Source: Bacteroidales bacterium (GTDB taxonomy: Bacteria; Bacteroidota; Bacteroidia; Bacteroidales; WCHB1-69). Taken from it: 64,000 bases of DNA. The stretch is from the NCBI GenBank assembly GCA_017633255.1, contig JAGBPS010000026.1:62001-126000 (forward strand), given 5' to 3'. The notes beneath the pieces were generated by a model, which saw only the letters and a list, made by a program, of their open reading frames with translations, had not been told where the DNA came from and did not search any database. The translations under genes were made by a program, and so were the position numbers. Within the stretch, counting starts at the first letter, position 1; each line of letters begins with the position of its first letter. Shown here one piece after another: positions 30,273 to 62,882 of the stretch.

Positions 30273-33200
30273 TTACTTCACGATAACCACTTTCTTGAAG
30301 ATGGCATTGTCGATTCTTACCATATAGACACCTGCGCTTGACATACTGATAGTTTCAGTCTCGTTGACGTCGGCATGCTGATATATGCAACGGCCGTTCA
30401 TGTCGTAAACGAATACGTCGTGGCCTTCTGCACCGCGAACGTAGATTGTGCTGTTGTTAGCGTAGATGAGGACATTGGAAGCGTCAACATCGTTGATACC
30501 GATACAAACTTGGAAGTTGGCAATGAGAGTGATGTCTTCGGTTACTGTGAAGGTGTAGGGGTTAGAGGCGTTGACAATGTTACCTTCACCATCAAGCCAG
30601 TTTGCAAATTCGTAACCTGTAGCGGGAGTGGCGGTGACGGTCACTACGGTGTTTTCAGCCACCTGTCCGAGAGGAACATCGCTGCTTACAGTACCCATTT
30701 CTTCGTTGGAGCTGGTGACGCTGACATTGTAATAAGTCACCTCGTTAGCTTCGAAGTAAGCTGTAAGGCTTAAAGTCATATTGGCCATCATTTGGGTGAT
30801 AGCGCAGTAGACTGTATCGGCAGAGAGTGTGTCTCTCATTACCACCGTACCAGCTATATATAGGCTCTCAATCCAGTAAAGGAAGTGATAGTTGTCGTTA
30901 GGGATAGCTGCAACGTAAGATGTGTCACCCACAGCATATTTATAGGTGCCGGGAGTGGGGTTGGTAGTACCCATGGTGGCATCATCAGTATTGACGATGA
31001 GGGTCAAGCTGTCGGGAGCGCCAGTTCCATCAGAGAACATAGCCATGACGGTGATCTCGCCAAGTTGAATCAAAGCTGAAGAGACAGTACATGGGAAAGG
31101 ATTGGCTTCTGCGGGGATATTGGTTAATATTACACCATTCCATAACACTCTATAGCCTTGGAAGCTGATTCCATCATTAGGCGTAGCGGTAATCATCAAA
31201 GTCTCATTCTCAGCTACAATATAGGTGCCTGGGTTGGGAGTGACGCTACCAAGATTTGAATCGTTGACAGTGAGATTGATAATCAGAGAGTCAGGTGTGA
31301 GGGGTTCATAGCTACTCTCAAACAGTTCAATGTCATCGATGAGCAAGAAGTCCTCATTGTAACTGTCGTGATGGTGGAAAGCGATATAGATTTCTTGGCC
31401 GGCGTATGCCGTGATGTCAACCATTTTCTGAACATAGATACCGACACTATCCGGAGAAACAGAAAGCAATGTCGTGGTGAAACTGGCGGTATCATTGGTG
31501 GTAGTGGAAATCATCACATCGTAGAGTTCAGAGGGATAATATGGATCTACTCTGTGCCACCAGCTGAGTGAAAGACTGTCGTCGATTACTGTGGGCAGGA
31601 CAAACTTAGGCGAAATCAGCCAGTTATTGGCATGTATAGCATCGTAATTATAGTAGCTGAAGGAAATGGCTGCTCCATTACCGGTATGGGCATAGGTGTT
31701 GTCGTCCAGGAAGTACCAAGGCAAACCATCGGCGCTGGCGTTAATAGTGCTCCAACAAGCTAAACCATTGTCAAAGCTTTCATGGTAAGGCAGGGTCGTA
31801 ATGTCTTCACATTCGGTCATAGTGGAGATGGTGGTTATGGCAGCACTGTCATCGACTGAGCAGATGGCTTGTACACTGAACACATAAGAGGTAGCGGGGG
31901 TGAGGCCATTGAAAGTATAAGTGGTATTGGTGATGTTAGCCACAAAGACTTCACCATTATAAATATCATAGCTTGCAGCAGTGCCAGTCCAACTGATGGT
32001 GATGCTGTTTACAGTGGCAGCGTCAACAGTCAGTTCGGCAGCGGGCATACAGCTTGGACATGCATCGTTCAAAGTGAAGAATATGATGTCTTCAACCAAA
32101 TCGTCACCATTGCCAGTGTAAACAACAGTGTTTCCACCGTCACGTATTTCGAAGTTGGCTTCGTCAGCGTATGAGCCTTCAACCCAGCTGAAGTTTACGG
32201 GAACACCGGTGCAGACGGAATAAGTCTCGGTGTTATTAAAACCACTTGCAACGGTGAAAGTGCCAATTGTAACACCGTCCTGTATAATATTGATGGCGTT
32301 GCCACTCCAACCGTCACCGTATGAGTCAGCACCCACGATGGTGATATTGCACTGGTTTTCAGGCATGCAGGCATCAGTGGTGAAGCTGGTGGGGTTGGTC
32401 CATGCACTGGTAGAGGAAGCGTCGCAAACAGCCTGTACGGACACTGTATAGTTGGTGTTGAGGTCAAGACCGGTCAGAGTGTAGGGACTGGTGACGTTGT
32501 TAGTCACGACGTCGTTCACACTGATATTGAAAGAAGGAGCATCAGAAGTCCAACTCACTTCGGCGGTTAATCCACCCGTATAGCTGATGATAACGCCAGC
32601 AGGTTTCATGCAATCGATAAGGTCGCCTTTGGCTATACGGATCTGGTTTTTGATATCCATTACAGTGCCATTATAAGCAGGAGCAGTCACATCGTAGTTG
32701 GTGTTGTCGCTGTGTATACTGAGAGCTTGGTTATTGGCGTCGAAAGTCAGGAATTGTGTGCTACTTGAATAGGATCCCGAGTTATCATCAATAATAATGG
32801 CTACATTGCTCAAGCCATCGTATGCGAAACCATCAAGAGTAATGGTGGTCCAAGCCTTAGGAGCGAAAGTGACGTTGCCGCTATACTGGAGGTTGGCAGG
32901 AGTAACGCTAATCCAGTCGGTGGCACTTGCGAAAGTGTCTTTTGCTGTGCTGACCATATAGATGGACAAGTTACGGGTGCGAGCAGTGTTGCTGTTATTA
33001 TAAAAATCAACGCTCTCTATGAGACCGGCATTACCTAATTCGGCGACAGTGTATATCTGCTGATTCAAGGAATAACTGTAGTAGCAGGAGGTGGGCAAGA
33101 AGTTGTTGGTGCCATTGCCCGAGCCGATAACGGTTTTGCTGGTGGGCTCAAAGCTTGTTGAGCTGCTCCATGTACTTTGATCATCAACATCACAGATAGC

Positions 33201-35030
33201 ACGCATTTTGACGGTATAGATAGAGTCGGGGACAAGATTAGTGAGGGTGTAAGGTTTTTGATTTACATCAATGATATTGGTCTCGTCACCGTTGAGAACA
33301 ATCTGCCAGTTGGTAGCGGTGCCGTTCTCGGTCCAGTTCAGGGTCACTTCTGTGGGGACATTGGAGTTGTATGTCACATTAAGTTCAGTGGGGGCAGGAC
33401 AGGAAATCAGGGTGTATAAATTTACGATAACCATGTTGCTGGTGCCACTAGTACAGTTGGCAACCACTCCAAAGCTGTATTGGGTGTTGGATGTGAGATT
33501 TGTGAGGGTGTAAGTGGTATCGTTAACAGTGGCTACAATTGAAGAAGTGTCGGCCATGTTATAAATGGTGTAGTTGTTGGCATTGCCCGACCATGTCAAT
33601 GTTGCTTCGTGAGCGGTGACATTGTTGGCGGTTAGGTTGTTGACAGGGAAGCAGTAGTCTGAGGTAATTTCGGTGATTTCCACATTGTCAATCCATGCAT
33701 TATATTGATAATCGCCGTAGTAATGAACAGCCAACTGGGTAGCAGTGGTAGGAATGACGAAAGTATGAATTGCCCAGTCATATGTTGAGAAAGAACTGTT
33801 GGTGTTATATGGAGTGGGATCCCATATGGTATCGGTGGGGGTAATATAACCAAAATAGAGATTGTCAGAGGGGCGAGTGCCGTAGACAACGCTTACTTGG
33901 AGATTGATTGCACTGCTGCTGACATTCAATATGGGTGAGAAGGCATATTGGTTGTAATCGGAGGCAGTGTTATAAGAACTGAATTGCAATACTTCGCGAC
34001 CATCAACGGTCAAGTAACCCATGCCATTTACACCACCAACGTTCGCTGTATTATTGCTGACTAATGTCCAGCAGTCAAGGGCGCTACTGGTGGTGGCAAA
34101 TGTTTCAGTATATGGCAGGGCGATATTGCAGTTGTGAGCTGTGCCGGTCAGCGTGATGTTGGCATTGGTAGTGCCGCTGGTCAGCGTAATTGTTCCATTG
34201 TCGGTTCCTTCAGTGGTGGGGGAGTATTGCACATATAAAGTGCCACCAATTTGGGCAAGAGAAGCGGTTGTGCCATAGTTGATGCCATCAGTGGAAACTC
34301 CAAAGGGAATAGAGGTGGAGACAGTGATAGTGCTGGTAAGATTGTATCCGTCAACCTGCACGGTTGTATAGACAGGGATTCCAACCATGGCGGACATTGT
34401 AACAGTTGATGGGTTGGCTAAAATGGCGGGTGAGGAGGGTACAAGGGAAACTTCCACATCATCCAAATTTAAAAGGAACTCGTCTGAGCAGTTGAAGTGT
34501 CGGAAAGCAATATATACTGTCTCGCCATTATAAGCGGACAGGTTGATAGTATGGTTTTCCCATGCTGTTTGCTCACGGGTCTGACCAATAGTGGCTTCAT
34601 AAAGTAAGGTGAATGCAGAGGTGTCGGTGTTTGTGGTGGTGGAAATATACACACCATAGTGTTCTGCGGAAAAACTGGCATCCTGACCACATACCCAGAA
34701 CGACAAGGAGGCTATTCCTGTCAGGTTGATGGCAGGTGTGATCAGCCAGTTGTCAGGAGTAATAGCTGTACTGGTTACGTTACTATAAGATCCTGAAAGG
34801 ATAAAACCAGTAGATCCATTATGACCATTGCCAGCAAGGATAACATCTGAGGGAAAGTAGGATACGGGAGATGAGCTGTGTTCCCACATTAGATTGTCGT
34901 TGTTGGCATCAATCTGGGTCCATCCGGAAGGCATCCCGTTGTCGAAATTCTCCGTGAAAATTGGTGTTTGCGCTTTCGCGAAGAAAGCCATCGCAAACAA
35001 AGCGAAGAACATAAGTAGAAATTTTTTCAT
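30273..35030 (-). CDS. T9SS-secreted adhesin with anchor-J and Fn3 domains
   Basis: A 1585-residue surface protein. A signal peptide (FFALFAMAFFAKAQ) is followed by three choice-of-anchor J/cleaved-adhesin jelly-roll domains (about 22-195, 300-455 and 1072-1235, each with ENFDNG or ESFDNG and NWLITP or NWLISP), and fibronectin type III modules between (CPAPTELNVTY, AEVSWTSDAPSF). From about 1247 come beta repeats SLGSVTPNPGTY-like and an InlB B-type repeat (TATPATGYEFANWLDGEG). The end is a type A T9SS sorting domain (about 1517-1585: YVRGAEGHDVFVYDMNGR, then VYMVRID and KKVVIVK). It needs PorU-type processing elsewhere in the genome. Ligand unknown. Confidence 0.92.
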   Translation of the reverse strand: MKKFLLMFFALFAMAFFAKAQTPIFTENFDNGMPSGWTQIDANNDNLMWEHSSSPVSYFPSDVILAGNGHNGSTGFILSGSYSNVTSTAITPDNWLITPAINLTGIASLSFWVCGQDASFSAEHYGVYISTTTNTDTSAFTLLYEATIGQTREQTAWENHTINLSAYNGETVYIAFRHFNCSDEFLLNLDDVEVSLVPSSPAILANPSTVTMSAMVGIPVYTTVQVDGYNLTSTITVSTSIPFGVSTDGINYGTTASLAQIGGTLYVQYSPTTEGTDNGTITLTSGTTNANITLTGTAHNCNIALPYTETFATTSSALDCWTLVSNNTANVGGVNGMGYLTVDGREVLQFSSYNTASDYNQYAFSPILNVSSSAINLQVSVVYGTRPSDNLYFGYITPTDTIWDPTPYNTNSSFSTYDWAIHTFVIPTTATQLAVHYYGDYQYNAWIDNVEITEITSDYCFPVNNLTANNVTAHEATLTWSGNANNYTIYNMADTSSIVATVNDTTYTLTNLTSNTQYSFGVVANCTSGTSNMVIVNLYTLISCPAPTELNVTYNSNVPTEVTLNWTENGTATNWQIVLNGDETNIIDVNQKPYTLTNLVPDSIYTVKMRAICDVDDQSTWSSSTSFEPTSKTVIGSGNGTNNFLPTSCYYSYSLNQQIYTVAELGNAGLIESVDFYNNSNTARTRNLSIYMVSTAKDTFASATDWISVTPANLQYSGNVTFAPKAWTTITLDGFAYDGLSNVAIIIDDNSGSYSSSTQFLTFDANNQALSIHSDNTNYDVTAPAYNGTVMDIKNQIRIAKGDLIDCMKPAGVIISYTGGLTAEVSWTSDAPSFNISVNDVVTNNVTSPYTLTGLDLNTNYTVSVQAVCDASSTSAWTNPTSFTTDACMPENQCNITIVGADSYGDGWSGNAINIIQDGVTIGTFTVASGFNNTETYSVCTGVPVNFSWVEGSYADEANFEIRDGGNTVVYTGNGDDLVEDIIFFTLNDACPSCMPAAELTVDAATVNSITISWTGTAASYDIYNGEVFVANITNTTYTFNGLTPATSYVFSVQAICSVDDSAAITTISTMTECEDITTLPYHESFDNGLACWSTINASADGLPWYFLDDNTYAHTGNGAAISFSYYNYDAIHANNWLISPKFVLPTVIDDSLSLSWWHRVDPYYPSELYDVMISTTTNDTASFTTTLLSVSPDSVGIYVQKMVDITAYAGQEIYIAFHHHDSYNEDFLLIDDIELFESSYEPLTPDSLIINLTVNDSNLGSVTPNPGTYIVAENETLMITATPNDGISFQGYRVLWNGVILTNIPAEANPFPCTVSSALIQLGEITVMAMFSDGTGAPDSLTLIVNTDDATMGTTNPTPGTYKYAVGDTSYVAAIPNDNYHFLYWIESLYIAGTVVMRDTLSADTVYCAITQMMANMTLSLTAYFEANEVTYYNVSVTSSNEEMGTVSSDVPLGQVAENTVVTVTATPATGYEFANWLDGEGNIVNASNPYTFTVTEDITLIANFQVCIGINDVDASNVLIYANNSTIYVRGAEGHDVFVYDMNGRCIYQHADVNETETISMSSAGVYMVRIDNAIFKKVVIVK

Positions 35031-44636: not shown

Positions 44637-47600
44637 ATGAAACGGTGTGCTGTGCTTCTCGGACTCTTGTGGGTGTTGTTGTTAGCTGTGCCTTTGGAGC
44701 TGAGTGCGCAGCAGGAGTCGCACTTCGATAAGCTTTGGGCGGATTTTGACCGGGGCTCTTCCTACTGGTATAAGAACAAATCCCAAAAGTTGGATACGAT
44801 TGAGCAGTTGGCGATGAGCGAGCGGAACGCCTATCACCTCTTTCGCGCAAATTGGGAGAGGACATACCTTGACGAGATCAACGATCGTGCCACCCCTAAA
44901 ACCGCACTTTTACGTATAGATTCATTGATCAGAATGAATGTGGCTGCCCAATGGGGAGATCCTGATGCTGCTTTGTACACCAGTCTGTATCATTATCTGA
45001 TGGGGATGGTGATGGTGAACGTGCATACGGGTGCAACAACCATGGCGAATACACGAAACACGGATTTAAGGCGCTTGGAGGAGTGGACTGACGAAGATTT
45101 CCGGACTTCCGCAAAAGAGCATTTCCGCACTTGCTTTGACCAAATGCCCACTGATTCCAGTTTCGATATCGATAAGTGGGATTTCATGATGTTGAATACT
45201 TCTGGGAGTGTTTTTACCCCTTCTTTCTTTGAGATATTGGCCGGAAACTGCCTCAATTATTTTTTCAAGGACGAAGAAATGGTGGATTATCTGGTAACAA
45301 AGGCCATTAATAATCCCCATGCCCAGAATCATCCTTTTATTCAAATAGAGTTTGAGCTTCAGCGGTTGTCCCATATATACGAATTGCCCACTTATCCCGT
45401 GGAGCTTTCGGACTACTGGAAGGGGGTTGAGCGTTTGGAGGAAAAGTATGGCCCCAATGAGGCGTTTGATTATATCAGGGGAGGGCTGCTCTATTTTGCC
45501 AACCAGCAAACGGAATATACAACCGACTATGCGGCAAGGGCTTTGGATTTTTTCAAGAAGGTAAGCGATAATGGCGAGGTTGAATATTATCGTCAGAATG
45601 CCAGCTATTATGTGCAGCTGCTTACTTTGCCCCGAATGTCGCTTGGCCAGATGAATGCCTATTTTCCGTTAGACAAAAAATTACGGATTCCCATCAACTA
45701 TTCCAATATCGACACGCTGTATGTCAGCGTTTATAAATGTCCGAGACGAAATTTTGACTATCCTCAGGATGAACCTATTGAATACGAAAATGAATATTCC
45801 ACTCAATTTGAGGGTAAAGAGTTAGAACCTGTTTGTACTCAGCGATTTGTGTTGAATAATCACGGCAAAAATTGGGCTTATACCACGGAACTATGGCTTG
45901 ATTCATTGCCCATAGGCCATTACGACCTGTTCTTCCACCTGAATCCGGAACCGGATAGTTCGGGTGCCTTGATTAAAACAGAAATCAGCGTGAGCCGTAT
46001 GTGGATTTCGAAATGGAATGCGGGCAGCTATGACAATTTTGCGATTAATGATTACCAAACAGGAGAGCCCATCTCGCTGCGAAGTGTCAAAACACCCTTG
46101 AAATTCCCGAGTTTGACCAATCGCTTTGGGGAGGTTCATAGTCAGCGTCTTTTTACCTCTTATCGTGATTTTATGTGGGTTAAGGATAAAAACACGAAGT
46201 ATAAATTTTTGCATAGTTTTTATGGCGTGCGCTATGGGCAACATATGCACTATGGACGTTCCAACAGCAAATATTATGCTTCAGCGCAACTTATAACGGA
46301 TAGAAATTTATACAGGCCCGGACAGAACACTTATTTCAAGGTTGTTTTATATAAAAATGGGAAAGTACTGCCCAATAAGCCAGTGATGGCGGAATTACGG
46401 GACAGTAAGGATGTTGTTTTGGATACTATAAATCTGATTACCAATGAATTCGGTAGTGCAACAGGCGAATTTAAACTGCCTCAGAAAATAGGAAAATACA
46501 TACTTCGTGTCATTTATCCTGCCTCCATCAAACAAAAGCATTATGAATTTGCTAAATTGGAGGTGGCAGAATATAAGCTGCCTTCTTTCAAGGTGAAATT
46601 GATGAAGGATACAACGCAGGTGGCGGTGGGCGACACGCTGACCATCAGGGGCTGTGTGACTGCGCTCAGCGGTTATCCGCTTCGCGATGCGTCCGTGGCT
46701 TTGACGGTGAAATGCATGGGAACAGAACGCTTCGATTTGCTTACGGATGAGGATGGCTGTTTCACGTATAGGTATGCAATTCCGATTTCTCCTGTACCTC
46801 TCATTTTATCGACTGAGGCTATAGTGACCGATTTGAATGGTGAAACTCATCAGGACCAGATGGCTATGGAAATCCCTTGTGATTTCTTGAGACTGGAACT
46901 TTGTGTAAAAGAAGATGTGGATTTGTCGGAAAATGATACGATGCGGATGGTGATTCAGCCTGTCAATTTTAAATGGATTCCGCAGCCTGTGCCTTTGCGC
47001 GTGACGGTAATGCAATTGCAATCACCCGATGCCTACAAAATTCCTGTGTTGGACAAGGAACCGAAACACTGGAATCCGCTTTACAGTGAGGAAGAGTATG
47101 CCCGCCAGTTTCCGTATCTGACATGGAATTTCAAGGCAAATCAGCGTGAGTGTTGGCCAGTTGTTGATACGGTTTTTGTGACAGAGCGTTTGTTTGCCCC
47201 TGATTCCTTGCTGCAGATAGATGCCCGTCAATGGAAAACAGGAGATTATCGTATTCATGTTGAGGGTGTGGATAAACGGGGAGATACGGTTGCGGCTACT
47301 CGTTTCTTTACGGTGAACCGTTCGTTGTCAACAGAAATGAATGCTTTTATGCCAATTCGAGCAGCATTTGTTGATACTCCGACAAAGAAAGGCGAGAAAG
47401 TAAGCTTCAGTGTGGGTTCTTTTCTGATGGATGCGGTGATGATTTGTGATGTGTATCAAGGAGTCAAACGTTTGAAAACCCTTCGTGTCCCGCTTAACCA
47501 TGAGCAGAAGGTAGTGTCGGTGAAGACGCGCAAAGGGGGTGATCGCAGTATCACTGTGCTTGCCCGTATCGTGCAGCATGGAGAGCTTCATCAGACAACG

Positions 47601-50600
47601 ATTAATAGAGATGTCGCTGATCCCAAGACGATGCAGGCACTGATTCGTTATGCTCAAGACCATATTTTAAATGCTGAACTGACACATTACCATAATGTGG
47701 CGGAGCCTGGAGAAAGTGAAGAATGGGAAATCACTGTCACGGATGGTCATGAAAAAGGAGCGAAAGAAGTAGAGATGTTGGCTTGGATGATGGATTGTAG
47801 CCTGTATGAGTTAGGTATGAAAGAGCCAGGGTATAAACTAAAAAGTAAAAGGATTCCTCGCTCCTTATCCAGGAAGGTGTATTCTGTCAATCCATACATG
47901 CAATGTAATAATCTCACCAAGCGATACTGTGAATTTGTTCTGTTCCGAAAAGCTCCTAAACGTAACTTCCAATCAAAGCCTTATATCTCGATACGACCTT
48001 TCTCATCCACTATATGGTCTAAAAAATATTTCGGAAAGTATCAGTCAGGGCAGCTGGAGGCAGTGGCAGTAAAATACGAGCCCCCTCTTTTTGATGCCGA
48101 CAATACAGCATCCCGTGGAAGAAGTATTGAGGATGCGTTGAGCAATCTGAATGGTGTTTCATCTGAGGATGGCAGTATCACTTCCGTGCGGGGTAATCGT
48201 AGCGATGGGCAGCAGGTTATAGTGGATGGGGTACAAATGCGTGATGAGCGGAGGGCAGTGTTGATAAGAGAGAAGTCGTCAAAGATAGAAAAACCTGTAT
48301 TGTCGCCTGATATCCGTGTGCGTAGGAATTTCACAGAGACAGCCTTTTTTTATCCGCAGTTGTGCACCGATGAGCAAGGCCGGGTGAAGCTTCGTTTTAC
48401 TCTTCCGGACCAGTACACCAACTGGCAGCTTTTTGCCACTGCCCATAACAAACAGATGGCCACGTGCAGCCTTACGGCTTATTTGCAGAGTCGCCGCACG
48501 ATGATGCTCCAGAGCAATGCGCCTCGCTTCCTCCGCGAGGGAGACACGCTGCATCTGCAAGCCAAAATCACCAATCGCAGTGACACTGCCCTTTCCGGCA
48601 TTGCCGTGGCCCGCTTCTTCAATCCTGAAACGGAGGCTCCTGTGGCGTTGCTGATGCATGCTGCCGATAGTGTACAAACTTTCCGTTGCGAGCCTAACAG
48701 TGCGGTTGTGGTGTCTTGGCAATTGCTTGTTCCTGAAGGTGTTTCTGCAGTTGGCTATCGGCTGTTGGCGCAGAGCGGAAACTTCGGTGACGGAGAGGAG
48801 AATATCCTGCCAGTGCTGCCCAACCGGGTGTTGGTCACCGAGGCGAAGCACTTCGTTGTGCAGGCACATACCGATAAGGAGTTCACTTTCCATCGATATC
48901 GTGAAGCACAAACTGCTACCATGCGGCCATTGAGCTACACTGTTGAGTTGACGGCCAATCCTGTATGGATAGCTATCCAGTCGCTGCCCTCGCTGATGCG
49001 TTATCCCTATGAGTGTAACGAGCAATTATTTGGTAAATTATTTGCAGCCGCTGTGGTTCGTCATGCGTTGAAACAGAACCCCGAATTAAAGGACGTCGTT
49101 GAGCTTTGGCGCAACGATACCGTGAATGGCTCTGTGGAGTCACCTCTGCTGAAGAACGAGGCACTGCACAATATCCTTTTGGAAGAGACCCCGTGGCTTA
49201 GCACTGCCCAAAACGAATCGCAACAGCGGAGGGAGAATGCAGAGTTGTTCAGTGCTGATAACATAGACCGTCAGCTCACGCATAATCTCAACAAATTGAT
49301 GCGAAATCAATTGCCGGGAGGCGGCTGGAGTTGGTACGGACGTTACAATTATTCCCGTTATATTACCGATTATCTTATTGCTGGTTTTTACAAGCTTCAG
49401 CGACTGGGTATGGAGTTGCCCACCGATGCCGAAAGAATGCTCGCCAAGGCTATCCGGCAGTCCGACAAGGCGCAGGAGGAACGCTATCAGAAGTATTTGG
49501 AAGAACGGAAAGAACATCCCGAAACGGAGTTTTATTTCAGTGAGGAGGATGTGCATTACCTCTATGCCCGATCCTTTGCACCAATGGACACGGCTTGGGT
49601 GAAAAAGCCATACGTTAGGAATCTGCTCAATTTGTCCATTAATCAAATCTATGCGGCCCCCTATATGCATCAGGCTGAGGTGGCGTTGGTGATGTACCGT
49701 TTCGGTATGCCTGAGGCAGCTAAAGATATTGTGGCTTTCCTGCGAAATAATGCTTTTGCTGACGAAGAGTTGGGTATGTATTGGGGCGAGAAGCCCGGCA
49801 GCCGACAGAAAGACTGGCGGATAAGAGCTTACTATCCCTGGTACGAGGCACCTGTGGAGCGTCAGGCCATGCTTATCGAGGCGTTTGCGGAAATATCACC
49901 ACAAGAGGACGAGTTGTCCGCCATGAAACAATGGATATTGCTGCAGAAAGAAAGTCATAGCTGGAAGAGTACGAAGGCCTCGTCAGCGGCGGTATATGCT
50001 TTGTTGCTGGACGCTCCGAAAGATTTGCTTGTGCCCGCAAGAACCTGGGTGGAAGTGGGTGACGAGAGTTTTATGACTGCGCAGGAAAACAATGCGGAGG
50101 CATGTCCGGGCTATCTGAAGCATGTATGGACAGCGGAGGAAATGACCCCGCAATTGGCAAGTGTTTACGTTCATGCTGATCGTGTTCACCCTGTGTTTGG
50201 TGCGTGCTATTGGCAATATTTGGAGATTCCTGACAAAGTGACTGCTTCCGGTGACGGACTGACGATACGCCGCACCTTGTTCCATCGTCCTGGCGAAGGC
50301 GACGGTGCGCATGCGGAGCCCGTGACAGCGGAGAATCCTATGCGTTTGGGTGAGCGTGTCACGGTGAGGTTGGTCATTAGCAGCGACCGAGAACTGGAGT
50401 ATGTGCACGTGAAAGATCCCCGTGCGGCTGCTTTTGAGCCGGTGAATATCCACGAGCGACGCGGTGGTAACCAAGGAGTATGGTGGGTGGAAAGCCCCCG
50501 CGATGCGGCTGAGCATTTCTTCCTGAATCGCCTTCCACAGGGCACGGTTATTATCGAATATGATTTTTATGTTACGCAGACAGGAACCTTCTCACATGGT

Positions 50601-50690
50601 CCTGCCTCCATTGAGTGCATGTACGCACCGGATCACCGTGCACAGAGTAATGGTGAGAGGGTGACGATTAAACACCCATTGGATCATTAA
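44637..50690 (+). CDS. Alpha-2-macroglobulin family protein with plug-like insert
   Basis: A 2017-residue exported macroglobulin. The signal peptide ends LELSAQ without a lipobox. Residues about 560-680 carry the MG2-type domain (LITDRNLYRPGQNTYFKVVLY), the A2M domain starts at about 1230 (ETAFFYPQLCTDEQGRVKLRFTLPDQYTNWQL), and YPYECNEQ around residue 1460 is the CxEQ thioester motif, so it could trap proteases covalently. An alpha-alpha toroid follows (GGGWSWYGRYNYSRYITDY). Just before the A2M domain, about 1155-1205, SIEDALSNLNGVSSEDG, SVRGNRSDGQQ and IVDGVQMR look like a TonB-receptor plug. No penicillin-binding protein 1C gene adjoins it. Confidence 0.9.
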   Translation: MKRCAVLLGLLWVLLLAVPLELSAQQESHFDKLWADFDRGSSYWYKNKSQKLDTIEQLAMSERNAYHLFRANWERTYLDEINDRATPKTALLRIDSLIRMNVAAQWGDPDAALYTSLYHYLMGMVMVNVHTGATTMANTRNTDLRRLEEWTDEDFRTSAKEHFRTCFDQMPTDSSFDIDKWDFMMLNTSGSVFTPSFFEILAGNCLNYFFKDEEMVDYLVTKAINNPHAQNHPFIQIEFELQRLSHIYELPTYPVELSDYWKGVERLEEKYGPNEAFDYIRGGLLYFANQQTEYTTDYAARALDFFKKVSDNGEVEYYRQNASYYVQLLTLPRMSLGQMNAYFPLDKKLRIPINYSNIDTLYVSVYKCPRRNFDYPQDEPIEYENEYSTQFEGKELEPVCTQRFVLNNHGKNWAYTTELWLDSLPIGHYDLFFHLNPEPDSSGALIKTEISVSRMWISKWNAGSYDNFAINDYQTGEPISLRSVKTPLKFPSLTNRFGEVHSQRLFTSYRDFMWVKDKNTKYKFLHSFYGVRYGQHMHYGRSNSKYYASAQLITDRNLYRPGQNTYFKVVLYKNGKVLPNKPVMAELRDSKDVVLDTINLITNEFGSATGEFKLPQKIGKYILRVIYPASIKQKHYEFAKLEVAEYKLPSFKVKLMKDTTQVAVGDTLTIRGCVTALSGYPLRDASVALTVKCMGTERFDLLTDEDGCFTYRYAIPISPVPLILSTEAIVTDLNGETHQDQMAMEIPCDFLRLELCVKEDVDLSENDTMRMVIQPVNFKWIPQPVPLRVTVMQLQSPDAYKIPVLDKEPKHWNPLYSEEEYARQFPYLTWNFKANQRECWPVVDTVFVTERLFAPDSLLQIDARQWKTGDYRIHVEGVDKRGDTVAATRFFTVNRSLSTEMNAFMPIRAAFVDTPTKKGEKVSFSVGSFLMDAVMICDVYQGVKRLKTLRVPLNHEQKVVSVKTRKGGDRSITVLARIVQHGELHQTTINRDVADPKTMQALIRYAQDHILNAELTHYHNVAEPGESEEWEITVTDGHEKGAKEVEMLAWMMDCSLYELGMKEPGYKLKSKRIPRSLSRKVYSVNPYMQCNNLTKRYCEFVLFRKAPKRNFQSKPYISIRPFSSTIWSKKYFGKYQSGQLEAVAVKYEPPLFDADNTASRGRSIEDALSNLNGVSSEDGSITSVRGNRSDGQQVIVDGVQMRDERRAVLIREKSSKIEKPVLSPDIRVRRNFTETAFFYPQLCTDEQGRVKLRFTLPDQYTNWQLFATAHNKQMATCSLTAYLQSRRTMMLQSNAPRFLREGDTLHLQAKITNRSDTALSGIAVARFFNPETEAPVALLMHAADSVQTFRCEPNSAVVVSWQLLVPEGVSAVGYRLLAQSGNFGDGEENILPVLPNRVLVTEAKHFVVQAHTDKEFTFHRYREAQTATMRPLSYTVELTANPVWIAIQSLPSLMRYPYECNEQLFGKLFAAAVVRHALKQNPELKDVVELWRNDTVNGSVESPLLKNEALHNILLEETPWLSTAQNESQQRRENAELFSADNIDRQLTHNLNKLMRNQLPGGGWSWYGRYNYSRYITDYLIAGFYKLQRLGMELPTDAERMLAKAIRQSDKAQEERYQKYLEERKEHPETEFYFSEEDVHYLYARSFAPMDTAWVKKPYVRNLLNLSINQIYAAPYMHQAEVALVMYRFGMPEAAKDIVAFLRNNAFADEELGMYWGEKPGSRQKDWRIRAYYPWYEAPVERQAMLIEAFAEISPQEDELSAMKQWILLQKESHSWKSTKASSAAVYALLLDAPKDLLVPARTWVEVGDESFMTAQENNAEACPGYLKHVWTAEEMTPQLASVYVHADRVHPVFGACYWQYLEIPDKVTASGDGLTIRRTLFHRPGEGDGAHAEPVTAENPMRLGERVTVRLVISSDRELEYVHVKDPRAAAFEPVNIHERRGGNQGVWWVESPRDAAEHFFLNRLPQGTVIIEYDFYVTQTGTFSHGPASIECMYAPDHRAQSNGERVTIKHPLDH

Positions 50691-55583: not shown

Positions 55584-58500
55584 ATGAAAAAATCCGCTCC
55601 CTTGTCCCAATCGCAGCTTGGTATTTATGCCGAGTGTGTACATCACGAAAATGAAGTTTTTTATAACCTTCCTTTTCTCTATGTTTTTGACGGCGGTATT
55701 GATGCTGACCGTTTGTGTCGCGCCATAGAGGCGGTGGTACAGGCCCATCCCGTTTTTTTTACACGCATTGAGCTGAGTGATGAGGGAGAGCCTTTGCAGA
55801 CTATTGATTTGGAAAAAGAGGAATTCAGCCTTTCCGTTGAACAGGTTACGGACCTTGAGGCCGAGAAGAAAAAATTCATTGAGCCTTTCCAGCTCCATGG
55901 AGGCAGACTGTTTCATACCAAAGTGATGCGCGATGCGGAGCATGTCTATTGGCTCTTCGATATGCACCATATCATCAGCGATGGCTCCTCATATCATATT
56001 ATCGTTTGTGATGTGGAGACGGCTTACAACGGTGGCACGCTTGCTCCAGAGGAGATGTCGATGCAGGAATTTGCCCTTGCTGAAGCGGAGATGCGCAAAA
56101 CACCTGCTTTCGAGGAGGGCAAACAATGGTATGCCCAAAACTTCGACTGCGGCGACACTTTCACCCAGCTTATGCCCGATTTGGAGATTCCCGAACACGC
56201 GGATGCCCAAAAACTCCGCGTTCTCGGCATCGACATGGATCGGGTGGATGCCTTCTGCAAGACCAACGGCATCAAAAAAAGCACTTTCTTCACGTCGGCA
56301 TTTTCCTTCCTCTTGGCCAAGTACAACAATGATCAGGAATCGCTGTTCACCACAGTTTTTAACGGTCGCGTCGAGCCGAAATTTCAACATTCCGTCGGTA
56401 TGACGGTGAAGACGCTGCCTGTATACGCCAAGTTCACGGAAGAGACCACGGTGCTCGATTTTATGAAAGCTGGCGAGGAACAGATGATTGGCTGTCGCAA
56501 GCACGATCTTTATTCCTATACCGACATCATGACCGACCTTAACCTGCAAACCAACGCCATGTTTGCATGGCATGGGCTCATGCTTGATTTCACCGAACTA
56601 ATGGGCAAACCCATGGAGGCCATTCAGCTTCGCAAACATAACGAGGGAGTGTCGTTCTATCTGATGGCTTTTTACGTCGGAAAAAAATATCATATCAAAG
56701 CGGAATACAAATCCAACGAATATTCTGAGACATTTGTTGAGCAATTCATGGAGAGTTACGAGGCGGTTTTGGAGGGCTTCCTAAGCCAAACTCTCCTGCG
56801 CGACATCGATATCTGCACCGAGAGCCAACGCGCCTTGTTGGACAGTTTCAACCAGACCGACACGGAGTTGGATATGAGTCAGACCATCGTGTCCAAATTC
56901 CGTGCGCAGGTGGCAAAAGCCCCTGACAATATCGCAGTGGTCTATAAGGATAAACGTTTTACCTATAAAGAGTTGGATGAGATTTCCGACCGCATTGCCG
57001 CCTATGTCCATGGGAAAGGCCTTCATGAGGAGGATGTCGTCTCGGTGTTGATTCCTCGTTGCGAGTGGATGCCTATCGTCTCCTTGGGCGTGTTGAAGGC
57101 CGGCTGTGCCTATCAACCCCTTGACCCGACTTATCCATCGGAGCGCCTCAACTTCATGATGCAAGACGCCTCCGTGAAATTGCTCATCGCCGATGAATCG
57201 TTACGCGATATCGTGAACGAATATAAAGGCGACGTGCTGCTTACCAAGGATATAAATCAATTGTCAACTGTCAACTATCAACTATCAACTCCTGTAAAGC
57301 CCGAGTCGCTCTTCATCATGCTCTATACCTCAGGTACCACGGGAACGCCCAAAGGCTGTCAGTTGGAGCATCGCAACCTCGTTGCGTTTTGCGAGTGGTA
57401 CCAGCGCAGGTTTAATCTCACACCCGGTTGTAAAGTTACGGCATACGCCAGTTACGGCTTCGATGCCAATATGATGGAAACGTATCCATGTCTCACGGGT
57501 GGTGCCACGCTTTACATCATTCCTGAAGAACTGCGCTTGGACATGATAGCGTTGAACGAATATTTTGAGCAAGAGCAGATCACCCACGGATTCATGACCA
57601 CGCAGGTGGCTTATCAGTTTGCCACTTCCATCGAGAACCACTGTCTGTACTACCTGTTGACAGGTGGCGAGAAGTTGGCACCTCTGACCCCGCCCACGAA
57701 CTACACGTTGGTGAACCTCTATGGTCCTACCGAAAGTACTGTCTGTATCACCTCCTTTGACGTGACGAAGTCCATGAAGGATATTCCGATTGGCTCGGCG
57801 TTGGACAATGTCAAGCTTTATATCGTCGATAAAGCGTGTCACCGCCTGCCTGTGGGTGTGGCGGGTGAACTTTGGGTCGCAGGACCGCAAGTCACTCGTG
57901 GCTACCTCAACCGTCCCGAGAAAACTGCTGAGGTCTATATCGCCAACCCCTTTGAAACAAACGAGAAATATGCACACATCTACCGTACTGGCGACATCGT
58001 GCGTTACCTCCCCGACGGCAATATCCAATTTGTGGGACGTAAGGACGGACAGGTCAAGATTCGCGGTTTCCGTATCGAACTCAAGGAGGTGGAGAGCATC
58101 GTCCGTCAGTTCCCCGGCATTAAGGATGCCACCGTGCAAGCCTTCGACGAAGAGGGCGGCGGCAAGTTCATTGCTGCTTATATCGTGGCAGACGAGCAGA
58201 TTGACATCGAAGCCCTGAATAACTTCATCCTGGAGGAGAAACCGCCTTACATGGTGCCTGCCGTGACGATGCAGATCGATCGCATTCCGCTCAACCAAAA
58301 TCAGAAGGTGAACAAGAAAGCCCTTCCGAAACCTGAAAAGAAAGCGGCAGCGGCTGAGGTGGCGAGCAATGTGCCGATGAATGTGTTGGAGCAGGAAATC
58401 CATGACATCATTGCAAAGATTATCAATACCGAGGACTTTGGCGTAACAACAGTGTTGGGCTATGCCGGCTTGACCTCCATCATGGCTATCAAATTGGCTG

Positions 58501-61500
58501 TCCAGATCAACAAACGTTTCGGTGTCACCCTTGACTCGAAATCCCTGTCCAAAACGGGAACTTTGCAAAGCATCGAGAACGAAATTCTCAACTATATGCT
58601 CAATGCTCCCACTGTTACTCAAACCACTTCAAGTTCCGACAACTGTCAACTGTCAACTGTCAACTGTCAACTAAAAAATGCTCCGCTTTCCTACGCGCAG
58701 ATGGGCGTCTATGTGGATTGCATGAAACAGCCCACTTCCACGGTGTATAATATCCCATCGCTTATCCGTTTCCCGAAAGGTACCGACGAGCAGTTGCTTG
58801 CCAAGTCCATTGAGACCCTCATCAAGGCGCACCCGCAATTCTTTGTGCATTTTGATAGCGAAGGAGGTGAAATCGTACAGATTGTTGACGTCAATCAATC
58901 TCTTGCCCTCACAAAGAACCAGTTAAGCGAAACGGAATTGGAGAAATACAAGGTAGAGTTCGTGAAGCCGTTCAATTTGAGACAAGGACCCTTGTACCGC
59001 ATGGAAATCGTGACCACTGAGCAAAATGTATATCTCTTGGTCGATGTGCATCACTTGATTTTCGACGGAGGCTCCCTTGACCTGTTCCTGAACCAGTTGT
59101 GCGACTTGATGAACGGCAAGGAAATCGAGGCTGAGGCTATCAGCTATGCCAATTTCGTTGCCGACGAAAAAGCTGCCGAAAACACGCCGAGTTACATAGA
59201 GGCCAAAAACTTCTTCAACGAGCGTTTGGGCAAGGTGGAAGGAGTTACTGAAGTGCCTACCGACTTGACCAATCCTTTGGATCAAGGTACTGTCAGCGAA
59301 GTCTTCTGCAAGATGGATTTCAATGCGATGGAAGAATTCTGCAAGAAGAACAATCTCTCATCCTCACACCTCACCTTGGCGGCGGTGTTCTATGCGCTCT
59401 CTCGTTTCACCAACAACGAGCAAATCTGTATCACTACCATCAGTAACGGTCGCTCCGACTTACGCATAAGCAATACAACGGGCATGTTTGTCAACACCTT
59501 GGCCTTGAGTGCCCAGATTGGCGAGCAAAATGTAATGGATTTCCTGAAAGAGACCGGCAAGAACTTTGATGAGACATTGACTCACGAGAAGTATCCTTTC
59601 GCGCAGATAGCCGCCGATTACGATCTGTCGGCCGAAATCATGTTTGCCTATCAGATGGGAGTAATAGACAAATATATTATCAATGGTCAAAAACTTGAAA
59701 TAGAGTCTCTTGAGCTGAATACTCCGAAATTCCGTATCGCTTTCTACATCCAAGAGAAAGAGGGCGTGCCAGGTGTGATGGTCGAATACGACAATGGTCG
59801 TTACAGTCATAGTTTGATGCAAAGTCTGGCACAATCGGTATGTAATGCGGTCAAAGTATTTATCCACCATCCTGAGATGGCCTTGCAGCAGGTCTCTTTG
59901 CTGGATGCCGAACAAACCGCAGTGCTCGACGGTTTCAACCAGACGGATGTGCCCTACGACGACACGCAGACCATTGTTTCGCTGTTCCGCCGTCAAGCGC
60001 AACTGACCCCCGACAACATGGCTGTGGTCTATCACGACAACAAATACACCTATCGCGAGGTGGATGATATCACGGAGCGCATTGCATCGCTCATTGTCTC
60101 ACAAGGTCTTGGAAGAGAAGACGTTGTTTCTATTCTCATTCCGCGTTGCGAGTGGATGCCTATCGCCGCACTCGGTGTACTGAAAGCCGGTTGCGCATAC
60201 CAACCCCTCGACCCGAGCTATCCCGCCGAGCGTCTGAATTTCATGATTCAGGATGCTGCCGCCAAAATGCTCATCGCCGATGAATCGTTGCGCGATATCG
60301 TGAACGAATACCATGGCGAAGTGTTGCTGACGAAAGATATTTTTGATTTGCCGAAGGCTAGCCAGCCTGTCAATGTCACCGTCAATCCGGCAGACCTGTT
60401 CATCCTGCTATATACCTCCGGTTCCACGGGCACGCCTAAGGGCTGCCAGTTGGAGCATCGTAATTTGGTGGCTTTCTGTCATTGGTACCAACGTCGTTTC
60501 GAGCTCAAGGCCGAGCACCATGTGTCTTGCTACGCCAGCTATGGATTCGATTGTTGCATGATGGATATGTATCCGGCGCTGACCTGTGGTGCTTGCGTCT
60601 ATATCATTGGTGACGACATCCGTTTGACCTTGCCGGAAGTGAATGTTTACTTCGATGAGAATCATATTACCCACTCGTTCATGACCACGCAGGTGGCCTA
60701 CCAGTTTGCTACCAACATGGACAATCATTCACTGTTGCATTTGATTGCGGCGGGTGAAAAATTGGCTTCTCTGGTGCCTCCGAAGAATTTCAAAATGCAC
60801 AATGGTTACGGTCCCACGGAGGGCACTATCCTTATCACAGAGTATGAGGTTGACGAGGAACTCAAGGATATTCCGGTGGGCAAACCGCTCGATAATTCAC
60901 GTCTATATGTCGTCGACAAACAATTTAACCGTCTGCCGCAAGGCGCGTTAGGTGAGCTGTGGATCAGCGGTGCTCACGTCACCAGAAGTTACCTTAACCG
61001 TCCGGAGAAAACCGCTGAGGTTTATATTCAGAATCCGTTCAGCGATGATCCGAAATTCTCCCGTATCTATCGCACCGGCGACATTGTTCGTTATCTTCCT
61101 GATGGCAACATCCAGTTCGCGGGTCGTAAGGACGGTCAGGTAAAGATCCGCGGTTTCCGCATTGAACTGAAAGAGGTGGAGGCCGTGATTCGTCAGTTTC
61201 CGGGCATCAAAGATGTCACCGTGCAAGCCTTTGAGTATGAGAACGGTGGTAAATATATTGCCGCCTACATCGTCAGTGACCAGCAGGTGGACATCAAGGC
61301 CCTCAATGCCTTCATTGGTGAACGTAAGCCTCCGTACATGATTCCTGCCTCTACGATGCAGATCGACAGTATTCCGTTGAACCAGAATCAGAAGGTGAAT
61401 CGCAAGGCATTGCCTACGCCCGTTATGCAGGCCTCAGACCGCGAATATGTGGCACCGGCCAATGACACAGAAGCCCTGTTCTGCCGCATCTTCAGCGAGG

Positions 61501-62882
61501 TTCTCTCTATGGACAAGATTGGTGCTAACGACAGCTTCTTCGATTTGGGTGGCACCTCGCTCATGGTGACTCGTGTCATCATCGAAGCCGATAAGGCGGG
61601 AATGCACGTGGCCTACGGCGATGTTTTCGCCAACGCCACCCCGAGAAAGCTTGCCGCGCTTGTTACGGGTAGTACGGTTGTCGATACCGATGATGAAGAT
61701 ATCACAAAATTCGATTATTCTGGCATTAACAAATTGCTGAGCAACAACACTTTATATAGCTTTCGCAATGGAGAACGCCAATCCTTGGGCAATGTACTGC
61801 TCACCGGTGCCACAGGTTACCTTGGTATTCACGTACTGCAAGAATTGATTCAGTCGGATGCAGAGAACATCTACTGTTTGGTACGCGACAAGAATATGGA
61901 TGCCGCTGAACACAGATTAAAAACCCTGTTGTTCTACTATTTCGAATCCACTTACGATGAACTGTTCGGCAAACGTCTCCACATTGTGCTTGGGGATGTT
62001 ACCAACGACTTGACTACTCTTGTACAGGCAAAAATTGACACAGTGTTCAACTGTGCTGCGGTGGTGAAACACTTCAGCGAAGGTACTGAAATCGAAGACG
62101 TGAATGTGGGTGGTGCGCAACGTTGTGTTGATTTCTGTTTGAAGACTGGCGCACGCTTGGTGCACATTTCCACCTATAGTACCAGTGGTCTCAACGTCAA
62201 CGATACCATGGATTCCGACTATGTTTTCACCGAGCAGAGACTTTACGACGGACAATATCTCGGTAACCAATATGTTCACTCCAAGTTCTTGGCAGAACGC
62301 ATTGTGCTGCAGTCGATTGCCGAAAATGATTTGTCGGCCAAGGTAATCCGTGTCGGTAATTTGGCGGCGCGTACCAGCGATGGTGAGTTCCAGATCAATT
62401 TCTCCACGAACTCCTTTATGGGACGAATCAAAGTCTTTAACATGCTGGGCTGTTTCCCCTATTCCCTGTACGAAAGCAAAGTGGAATTTTCTCCCATTGA
62501 CGAAACGGCGCACGCCATCATCCTGCTCAGCTCCACCCCCAAGGAGTGCTGTCTGTTCCATTCTTACAACAGCCACACACAGTTCCTCGGCGACGTTCTC
62601 AGCGGATTCAACAAGCTGGGTACAGACATTCGTCTTGTGGAGGATGAGGAGTACAATGCTATTATGGAGAGTGCGGGCAACGACCCACAGAAGGCCAAGA
62701 CGCTTTCCAGTCTGCTCGCTTACCAGGATATGGCTCACGGCATGAAAGTCTCTGAAGTGCCCGTCAGCAATCCGTACACCACGCAAGTGCTCTATCGCTT
62801 AGGCTTCAAATGGTCTCCCACCACTTGGGACTATGTCGATCGTATGTTGAGTGCTATCAGCGGCTTGGGATTCTTTGATTAA
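55584..62882 (+). CDS. Two-module NRPS, C-A-T-C-A-T-reductase
   Basis: A 2432-residue nonribosomal peptide synthetase. C1 (HHIISDG at 128), A1 (LYTSGTTGTPKG at 580), carrier T1 (Ser about 965 in the atypical GLTSIMAIKL), C2 (HHLIFDG at 1156), A2 (LYTSGSTGTPKG at 1609), T2 (LGGTSL, Ser 1992) and a thioester reductase domain (TGATGYLG about 2074, YxxxK at 2230). A leading C domain suggests N-acylation of the first residue; the reductase should release a dipeptide aldehyde. By-eye specificity codes, D-A-M-F-L-G-L-V-C-K and D-C-M-F-I-A-G-I-L-K, suggest hydrophobic residues. No phosphopantetheinyl transferase or thioesterase is present. A1 and the T1-C2 linker contain in-frame heptamer repeats. 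Confidence 0.93.
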   Translation: MKKSAPLSQSQLGIYAECVHHENEVFYNLPFLYVFDGGIDADRLCRAIEAVVQAHPVFFTRIELSDEGEPLQTIDLEKEEFSLSVEQVTDLEAEKKKFIEPFQLHGGRLFHTKVMRDAEHVYWLFDMHHIISDGSSYHIIVCDVETAYNGGTLAPEEMSMQEFALAEAEMRKTPAFEEGKQWYAQNFDCGDTFTQLMPDLEIPEHADAQKLRVLGIDMDRVDAFCKTNGIKKSTFFTSAFSFLLAKYNNDQESLFTTVFNGRVEPKFQHSVGMTVKTLPVYAKFTEETTVLDFMKAGEEQMIGCRKHDLYSYTDIMTDLNLQTNAMFAWHGLMLDFTELMGKPMEAIQLRKHNEGVSFYLMAFYVGKKYHIKAEYKSNEYSETFVEQFMESYEAVLEGFLSQTLLRDIDICTESQRALLDSFNQTDTELDMSQTIVSKFRAQVAKAPDNIAVVYKDKRFTYKELDEISDRIAAYVHGKGLHEEDVVSVLIPRCEWMPIVSLGVLKAGCAYQPLDPTYPSERLNFMMQDASVKLLIADESLRDIVNEYKGDVLLTKDINQLSTVNYQLSTPVKPESLFIMLYTSGTTGTPKGCQLEHRNLVAFCEWYQRRFNLTPGCKVTAYASYGFDANMMETYPCLTGGATLYIIPEELRLDMIALNEYFEQEQITHGFMTTQVAYQFATSIENHCLYYLLTGGEKLAPLTPPTNYTLVNLYGPTESTVCITSFDVTKSMKDIPIGSALDNVKLYIVDKACHRLPVGVAGELWVAGPQVTRGYLNRPEKTAEVYIANPFETNEKYAHIYRTGDIVRYLPDGNIQFVGRKDGQVKIRGFRIELKEVESIVRQFPGIKDATVQAFDEEGGGKFIAAYIVADEQIDIEALNNFILEEKPPYMVPAVTMQIDRIPLNQNQKVNKKALPKPEKKAAAAEVASNVPMNVLEQEIHDIIAKIINTEDFGVTTVLGYAGLTSIMAIKLAVQINKRFGVTLDSKSLSKTGTLQSIENEILNYMLNAPTVTQTTSSSDNCQLSTVNCQLKNAPLSYAQMGVYVDCMKQPTSTVYNIPSLIRFPKGTDEQLLAKSIETLIKAHPQFFVHFDSEGGEIVQIVDVNQSLALTKNQLSETELEKYKVEFVKPFNLRQGPLYRMEIVTTEQNVYLLVDVHHLIFDGGSLDLFLNQLCDLMNGKEIEAEAISYANFVADEKAAENTPSYIEAKNFFNERLGKVEGVTEVPTDLTNPLDQGTVSEVFCKMDFNAMEEFCKKNNLSSSHLTLAAVFYALSRFTNNEQICITTISNGRSDLRISNTTGMFVNTLALSAQIGEQNVMDFLKETGKNFDETLTHEKYPFAQIAADYDLSAEIMFAYQMGVIDKYIINGQKLEIESLELNTPKFRIAFYIQEKEGVPGVMVEYDNGRYSHSLMQSLAQSVCNAVKVFIHHPEMALQQVSLLDAEQTAVLDGFNQTDVPYDDTQTIVSLFRRQAQLTPDNMAVVYHDNKYTYREVDDITERIASLIVSQGLGREDVVSILIPRCEWMPIAALGVLKAGCAYQPLDPSYPAERLNFMIQDAAAKMLIADESLRDIVNEYHGEVLLTKDIFDLPKASQPVNVTVNPADLFILLYTSGSTGTPKGCQLEHRNLVAFCHWYQRRFELKAEHHVSCYASYGFDCCMMDMYPALTCGACVYIIGDDIRLTLPEVNVYFDENHITHSFMTTQVAYQFATNMDNHSLLHLIAAGEKLASLVPPKNFKMHNGYGPTEGTILITEYEVDEELKDIPVGKPLDNSRLYVVDKQFNRLPQGALGELWISGAHVTRSYLNRPEKTAEVYIQNPFSDDPKFSRIYRTGDIVRYLPDGNIQFAGRKDGQVKIRGFRIELKEVEAVIRQFPGIKDVTVQAFEYENGGKYIAAYIVSDQQVDIKALNAFIGERKPPYMIPASTMQIDSIPLNQNQKVNRKALPTPVMQASDREYVAPANDTEALFCRIFSEVLSMDKIGANDSFFDLGGTSLMVTRVIIEADKAGMHVAYGDVFANATPRKLAALVTGSTVVDTDDEDITKFDYSGINKLLSNNTLYSFRNGERQSLGNVLLTGATGYLGIHVLQELIQSDAENIYCLVRDKNMDAAEHRLKTLLFYYFESTYDELFGKRLHIVLGDVTNDLTTLVQAKIDTVFNCAAVVKHFSEGTEIEDVNVGGAQRCVDFCLKTGARLVHISTYSTSGLNVNDTMDSDYVFTEQRLYDGQYLGNQYVHSKFLAERIVLQSIAENDLSAKVIRVGNLAARTSDGEFQINFSTNSFMGRIKVFNMLGCFPYSLYESKVEFSPIDETAHAIILLSSTPKECCLFHSYNSHTQFLGDVLSGFNKLGTDIRLVEDEEYNAIMESAGNDPQKAKTLSSLLAYQDMAHGMKVSEVPVSNPYTTQVLYRLGFKWSPTTWDYVDRMLSAISGLGFFD
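57256..57290 (+). repeat. Five heptamers (GTCAACT type) inside A1
   Basis: ATCAATT, GTCAACT, GTCAACT, ATCAACT and ATCAACT, in frame, encode QLSTVNYQLST between the VLLTKDI strand and the SGTTG loop of the first adenylation domain. Confidence 0.85.
58638..58672 (+). repeat. Five heptamers (GTCAACT type) in the T1-C2 linker
   Basis: GACAACT followed by four exact GTCAACT units encode NCQLSTVNCQL, joining the first carrier protein to the second condensation domain. Confidence 0.85.

Follow-up and report, generated by a model that had tools for sequence, protein, structure and literature searches.

Cleavage of a bait springs bacterial alpha-2-macroglobulins (A2Ms), and when a bacterial A2M is supplied with a chosen bait sequence, the protease cleaving that bait is captured (PMC9918453). 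Among the described members of the family, ECAM (E. coli YfhM) and the A2M of Salmonella, both of type I, share domain order, thioester and the place of a disordered bait with the protein reported here (PMC4498604). The ECAM bait comprises about 40 residues (923–963), with density missing at 923–942 and residues 947–963 ordered only after cleavage (PMC4498604). In A2Mcap, an engineered bacterial A2M, the sequence of the bait decides which protease is captured (PMC9918453); that bait is man-made, whereas baits of the type described below copy endogenous proteins. On the side of TonB-dependent import, two kinds of TBDT are relevant: SusC, whose TonB box reads VDEVVV (PMC7782687), and receptors that combine CarboxypepD_reg, Plug and barrel, an architecture named the Oar subclass (PMC6434023).

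The stretch of DNA that we analysed, hereafter the window, comprises 64,000 nucleotides of a Bacteroidales contig (GCA_017633255.1, JAGBPS010000026.1, positions 62,001 to 126,000). It encodes a type I bacterial A2M that has an ordinary architecture and an unusual bait (Table 1), about 160 residues long as against about 40 in ECAM (PMC4498604). The CNEQ thioester announced by an earlier note on this DNA is present at aa 1460, and a Pfam search of the whole protein finds no beta-barrel family, in agreement with the same note, and no A2M_BRD match. The protein is probably secreted and periplasmic; a crude pattern check, made with an inner-membrane anchor like that of ECAM in mind, gives no lipobox, a feature of two of the 81 aligned proteins. 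While the ECAM gene lies beside pbpC, none of the eight window neighbours of the A2M gene recurs beside 10 related A2M loci, several of them short, when sought at E up to 1e-3. On the minus strand of the window, positions 30273–35030 encode a 1585-aa protein with Cleaved_Adhesin, fn3, InlB-type repeat and DUF6383 domains, which is probably a surface protein.

Table 1. Features of the window A2M gene and of its bait region (window coordinates; aa, residues of the A2M)
Feature	Position	Strand	Basis
A2M gene, 2017 aa	44637..50690	+	MG2, A2M and bMG10 all above Pfam cut-offs
Probable signal peptide, about aa 1–25, ...LELSAQQ	44637..44711	+	Read from sequence
MG2 domain, aa 552–625	46290..46511	+	PF01835, E 9e-13
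Bait region, predicted disordered, aa 1070–1229	47844..48323	+	pLDDT <50; folded domains on either side; before PF00207
TonB-box position LEAVAV (degenerate), aa 1140–1145	48054..48071	+	Alignment to TBDT
Segment resembling the own-genome Oar-type TBDT, aa 1142–1209	48060..48263	+	68% identity, genome search, E 1.4e-18; 47/63 identical
EPPLFDADNTAS, aa 1148–1159, conserved with TBDT linker	48078..48113	+	Identity 0.50–0.72 to six relatives (aa 1143–1160)
Plug helix region GRSIEDALSNLNGVSSEDG, aa 1161–1179	48117..48173	+	Pfam Plug match; alignment to TBDT
Plug hairpin SVRGNRSDGQQVIVDGVQMR, aa 1183–1202	48183..48242	+	Identity 0.63–0.79 (aa 1186–1204)
A2M domain PF00207, aa 1235–1319	48339..48593	+	E 5e-16
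Thioester motif CNEQ, aa 1460–1463	49014..49025	+	CxEQ in 80/81 aligned proteins
bMG10 domain, aa 1874–1999	50256..50633	+	PF17973, E 1.6e-25

An AlphaFold2 model of residues 880–1330, run with 80 alignment rows, displays two well-folded flanks on either side of a stretch (fragment residues 191–350) in which pLDDT stays below 50, a low value that may partly come from the thin alignment there. The earlier note had looked to structure prediction for an unrelated fold as evidence against a plug; the model assigns the segment no fold, related or unrelated. ECAM (4ziq; Z 12.9, rmsd 9.7, 249 residues, model 26–451 on ECAM 756–1062) gives the best alignment to the flanks, together with the Salmonella A2M; counting in from the end points of the ECAM alignment, and from these only, the disordered stretch would correspond to about ECAM 921–961. 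An A2M_BRD match directly precedes the bait in 66 of the upstream segments of 80 relatives, and it exceeds the cut-off in a second A2M encoded by this genome; between this match and the IRxNLxETAFF strand, the sequence is hypervariable across the 80 relatives. Since the predicted disorder, the alignment with ECAM and the published position of the ECAM bait agree, the plug-like segment lies in the bait region, the loop at which a cut sets off the trap. This location opens a third reading of the segment, beyond the two offered initially, namely a module reused in a macroglobulin or a means of docking to a TonB partner.

The plug-like segment itself is real: the peptides quoted in the earlier note are in frame at the place it gave, and they are related to the plug of a TBDT. 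When a 57-aa piece of the insert was searched against the whole genome of origin (E up to 10), the single match other than itself was the plug of one TBDT (G000:C11; 74% over 46 aa, E 2e-16), so that the likeness is more than chance. The bait scores 213 against this receptor, the best of 500 shuffles reaching 43. The alignment, in which LEAVAVKYEPPLFDADNTAS..GRSIEDALSNLNGVSSEDGSITSVRGNRSDGQQVIVDGVQMR stands opposite LDVVEVVWEPPVFDADNTSS..GRSITAALSNLEGVSSVDGSMTAVRGNRSDGQQMIVDGVRMR (47 of 63 residues identical), extends from the TonB-box position across the linker as far as the plug hairpin and takes in the first half of the plug, and the similarity begins at about window position 48060, upstream of the start first assigned to the segment. 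The partner is a 1281-aa TBDT with an N-terminal CarboxypepD_reg domain (PF13620), a Plug and a barrel, in other words a receptor of the Oar type, of which the bait copies the part between the TonB box and the middle of the plug. Unlike this receptor, the bait has neither NTE nor barrel, its half plug falls below the cut-off and it is predicted to be disordered. The profile search suggested earlier gave a plug match, yet one under Pfam's own threshold: PF07715 weakly matches aa 1159–1203 (profile positions 20–69 of 107) with an E value of 0.015 in the whole protein, 0.0023 in a 167-aa fragment and 0.0019 (19.1 bits) in a 154-aa segment, scores in the window A2M being 16.2 to 19.1 bits and the curated cut-off 23.9 bits. 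Note that the Plug of the partner receptor itself reaches 24.1 bits, barely above that value.

The assignment of the segment to SusC-type receptors did not hold. The nearest family is the Oar-type TBDT, the strict TonB box [LVIM][DE]E[VI][VIA][VIT] does not occur in the window protein, and the NCBIfam SusC/RagA model TIGR04056 gives no match with the window bait at E up to 1; a SusC origin of the window insert is ruled out by this missing match together with the match to the Oar-type receptor. In the order as a whole, a 45-aa plug piece of the Oar-type TBDT (L083:6528–10373) has 49 matching places, spread over 46 of 119 genomes, and for 44 of these places the frame measures 1215–1323 aa; a PDB relative of this receptor was not found by sequence (best E 0.32). 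The genome of the window holds 12 plug places, including the A2M, the C11 receptor and a fragment on C14 (the three that were read), the remainder lying in frames of 274 to 860 aa.

Similar baits recur among relatives. We gathered 80 related loci by means of peptide patterns, none of which is located within the insert, and found at least one TonB-box, plug or TonB-linker motif in 39 of the 80 baits, compared with 0/80 upstream controls and at most two in 500 shuffles; the four motifs, which were composed after the sequences had been read, are distributed as SusC-type TonB box (16), plug alpha-1 (15), RG..DG hairpin (13) and TonB linker (4), and 41 baits have none of them. The SusC-type TonB box was scored in its strict form, with 0/80 in the upstream controls. 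At E up to 1, Pfam Plug matches 11/80 baits (best 5e-11) and the NCBIfam SusC/RagA model 16/80 (best 3e-35); in the controls, scanned on the upstream side only, Plug and SusC are not among the best 25 of 79 and 25 of 38 families, and the remaining families match at most one member each. Many of the related baits with SusC-type TonB boxes are from Flavobacteriaceae, and three baits (L045, L066 and L073) contain near-complete plugs above the Pfam cut-off, whereas the window bait has no SusC match. The model of the L045 bait is of low confidence (mean pLDDT 50, with 70–83 in part of the plug); its best seven matches in the PDB are all TonB-dependent receptors (E 0.05–0.56), and by sequence this bait matches SusC structures (5fq6, E 1e-17). 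One of the 80 baits gives an NCBIfam GldJ match (E 7e-10), although none of 10 baits tried singly proved to be its source.

A sample of the phylum gave a comparable picture. Of 99 genomes, 43 have an A2M, and 28 of 29 loci were usable (L209 was left out). Twelve loci are of the long-bait type: five match SusC/RagA at E up to 0.01, six have a motif and nine are of TonB type by reading. By contrast, TonB-type bait sequence was found in none of the 16 ECAM-like A2Ms of this sample. Three of the 12 long baits also match the NCBIfam BamP model (best E 2e-5), which a CarboxypepD_reg domain in these baits might explain. The baits of L013, L078, L211, L216 and L218 contain proline-rich runs that resemble the proline-rich linkers of TonB.

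The partner is not always a receptor. Searches of 15 genomes, 14 of which gave a match, yielded 30 A2M frames, of which 29 were examined (G024:C9 was left out): 19 baits are TBDT-like, seven TonB-linker-like and three neither (G012:C7, G019:C1 and G021:C46, for which another genome's TonB was used). Fourteen of the TBDT-like baits beat all 200 shuffles against the TBDT of their own genome, and the other five, missed by the patterns, were found by search at E 1e-13 or better. The seven TonB-linker-like baits beat 300 shuffles, three against the TonB of the same genome and four against that of another, two of these matches being narrow (60 vs 46–48 in shuffles). The second A2M of the window's genome (G000:C28, 1976 aa) belongs here: its bait has EEVVLNTVADNIKVNTDLNLDENLE, and the adjacent gene, transcribed divergently (L202:4580–11422), encodes a TonB (TonB_C, 70.4 bits) whose linker, QQEVVLNIVDDNIKVNTDFDFSQDFDENLE, the bait resembles. 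A bait from Cloacimonadota (L041) scores 242 against a TBDT of its own genome, distinct from the partner of the window bait, the next of 17 other receptors scoring 74; G024 likewise provides a clear match within its genome (236 vs 169), and the L006 bait fits its own TBDT best (136 vs 115) with the pieces in permuted order. In its own genome, the bait of a Fibrobacteria A2M (L014) weakly finds a 345-aa protein (E 0.008, 70% over 23 aa), which is a TonB (TonB_C 25.8 bits, cut-off 24.6) encoded next to ExbD. Searched in the same way, the baits of L039 and L051 found only themselves. Among 18 receptors, the TBDT from the own genome ranks strictly first for four of 23 mimics (one of the four a tie), with a median rank of 4 of 18; strict tracking of the own genome is therefore only partly borne out.

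If the similarity resulted from recent gene conversion by a TBDT gene, the synonymous codons should be more alike within genomes than between them. They are not: at residues identical between mimic and TBDT, the same codon is used in 275/780 cases within genomes and 3697/11558 (0.320) between genomes, with 14/46 for the window alone, while among TBDT orthologues the share reaches 0.52. Recent gene conversion is thereby ruled out, and the randomised synonymous codons indicate that there was no recent copying from the TBDT. Compared with six relatives, identity is 0.40–0.64 over aa 1161–1185 of the mimic, between the linker and hairpin parts listed in Table 1, and 0.47–0.61 over the whole protein, whereas the remaining bait reaches 0.16–0.21 (aa 1085–1142) and 0.13–0.43 (aa 1205–1227). 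Relative to L001, dN is 0.297 for the mimic, 0.303 for the protein and 0.898 for the remaining bait. In four close pairs, dN/dS of the mimic (0.099/0.249, 0.046/0.184, 0.074/0.295 and 0.108/0.364) is below 1 in every case, yet slightly above that of the whole protein (0.040/0.275, 0.038/0.232, 0.055/0.240 and 0.067/0.332), also in all four. At the protein level, the mimic is conserved within a bait that otherwise drifts.

These data establish that the sequences are related, that the likeness lies in the bait, that it has been conserved with no recent copying of DNA and that it recurs, in other lineages, with other partners from the TonB system. The explanation that we prefer, with a probability of roughly 0.45, is that the bait mimics a client and so traps proteases that attack the TonB machinery; it infers that the A2M resides in the periplasm, that a protease cuts the mimic, which protease this would be, and that trapping and protection follow. 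The window bait would act as a mimic of the TBDT of its own genome, covering the TonB-box position, the linker and the first half of the plug, and the bait of the second A2M would imitate TonB in its periplasmic linker. A protease able to cut the TonB machinery where it is flexible and periplasmic would instead cut the look-alike in the A2M, the cleavage would cause the A2M to change conformation, and the CNEQ thioester would then bind the protease covalently. A bait that copies flexible periplasmic parts of TonB or its receptors should thus catch the proteases that cut those parts. Several points count against this explanation: the plug piece also occurs in DUF4139, vWA/YfbK and TonB-like proteins, which have no trap; a trap needs no such similarity, since flexible sequence of any kind will do as bait; the L039 and L051 baits are unmatched; the own TBDT is best in only 4/23 cases; and dN/dS of the mimic slightly exceeds that of the protein. 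Extended to the A2Ms of Bacteroidota, Cloacimonadota and Fibrobacterota, the explanation becomes slightly more tentative: these proteins may guard TonB-dependent import with copies of its exposed periplasmic segments, be it the TonB box and plug of a receptor or the linker of TonB, such that any protease able to disable this import would arm the trap against itself.

The chief rival, which we regard as possible though doubtful, is that the TonB-box, plug and linker pieces form a docking module by which A2Ms, like several further envelope proteins, attach to TonB, ExbD or a TBDT, which would place the trap at the gate of the receptor or couple it to the force of TonB. It is favoured because proteins that are not traps carry such pieces. 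The plug piece of the window A2M recurs in three genomes within a DUF4139 protein (L127, L129 and L130) and, in one further genome, in a vWA/YfbK protein (L126:5459–7390, plus strand) and a 351-aa protein (L126:3513–4565, minus strand) about 0.9 kb apart, the latter having no Pfam match and being TonB-like by eye only. Among 15 DUF4139 proteins of the phylum, read out of 25 places (L135–L148 and L159), seven carry in the same loop, by reading, pieces of TBDT type, which in two proteins are near-complete plugs. The pieces in these loops include TonB box, NTE and near-complete plugs, and they fit the TBDTs of other genomes better than those of their own. With these loops in DUF4139, vWA/YfbK and TonB-like proteins, both suggestions of the earlier note, a reused module and docking to a TonB partner, are still tenable. 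Docking would also be consistent with the strict SusC-type TonB box in 16/80 baits and 0/80 controls, given that SusC function requires the TonB box (PMC7782687). On the other hand, the TonB box of the window bait is degenerate while hairpin and linker are conserved, and what paralogues retain is either DNTxSxxRLSGENIRTTPGRSV alone or the hairpin alone, with no TonB box, which disfavours docking; moreover, the second A2M mimics the linker of TonB and not a ligand of TonB. Client mimicry and docking may both hold.

It is unlikely that the pieces are mere filler, taken up from the abundant TBDT genes by repeated recombination into a bait that tolerates any flexible sequence and devoid of a specific role. 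The mosaic and permuted order of pieces, as in L006, the great variation of the bait between species and the only loosely own-genome result of the rank test would be expected of filler; saturated synonymous sites with the residues kept, dN/dS below 1 and, in three lineages, a partner that is another protein of the TonB system and not a random one would not. Far less probable still is that the plug mimic lets the A2M engage an Oar-type TBDT for its own secretion or display. The partner does have the Oar architecture (PF13620, Plug and barrel), and in Myxococcus, Oar is needed for secretion of the PopC protease and interacts with PopC, the secretion requiring the TonB box (PMC6434023), but PopC is not known to carry such a tag, and the TonB-linker mimic of the second A2M would be left unexplained. 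A chance or low-complexity resemblance, to which the Pfam score under the cut-off might point, is already contradicted by the own-genome E value of 2e-16, the score of 213 as against at most 43 in 500 shuffles and the motifs in 39/80 baits as against at most two in 500 shuffles, and it deserves practically no credence.

Should baits copy clients, as we propose, then the sequence of a bait would reveal what each A2M guards, the protease could be searched for by its substrate, and the plug and the TonB linker would be sites of proteolytic attack. Copying of a cell's own import machinery would, if true, mean that a complement-like protein of bacteria follows a guard-and-decoy logic. In the open-access literature (subscription papers lying outside it), a TonB-like sequence in an A2M bait was not found among the matches listed.

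Downstream of the A2M gene, the plus strand of the window (55584–62882) encodes a 2432-aa NRPS with two adenylation, two condensation and two carrier domains and a C-terminal reductase-type NAD_binding_4 domain. Gut NRPSs of such layout make protease-inhibiting dipeptide aldehydes. If the window NRPS makes such aldehydes, a distance of about 5 kb would separate two anti-protease systems.
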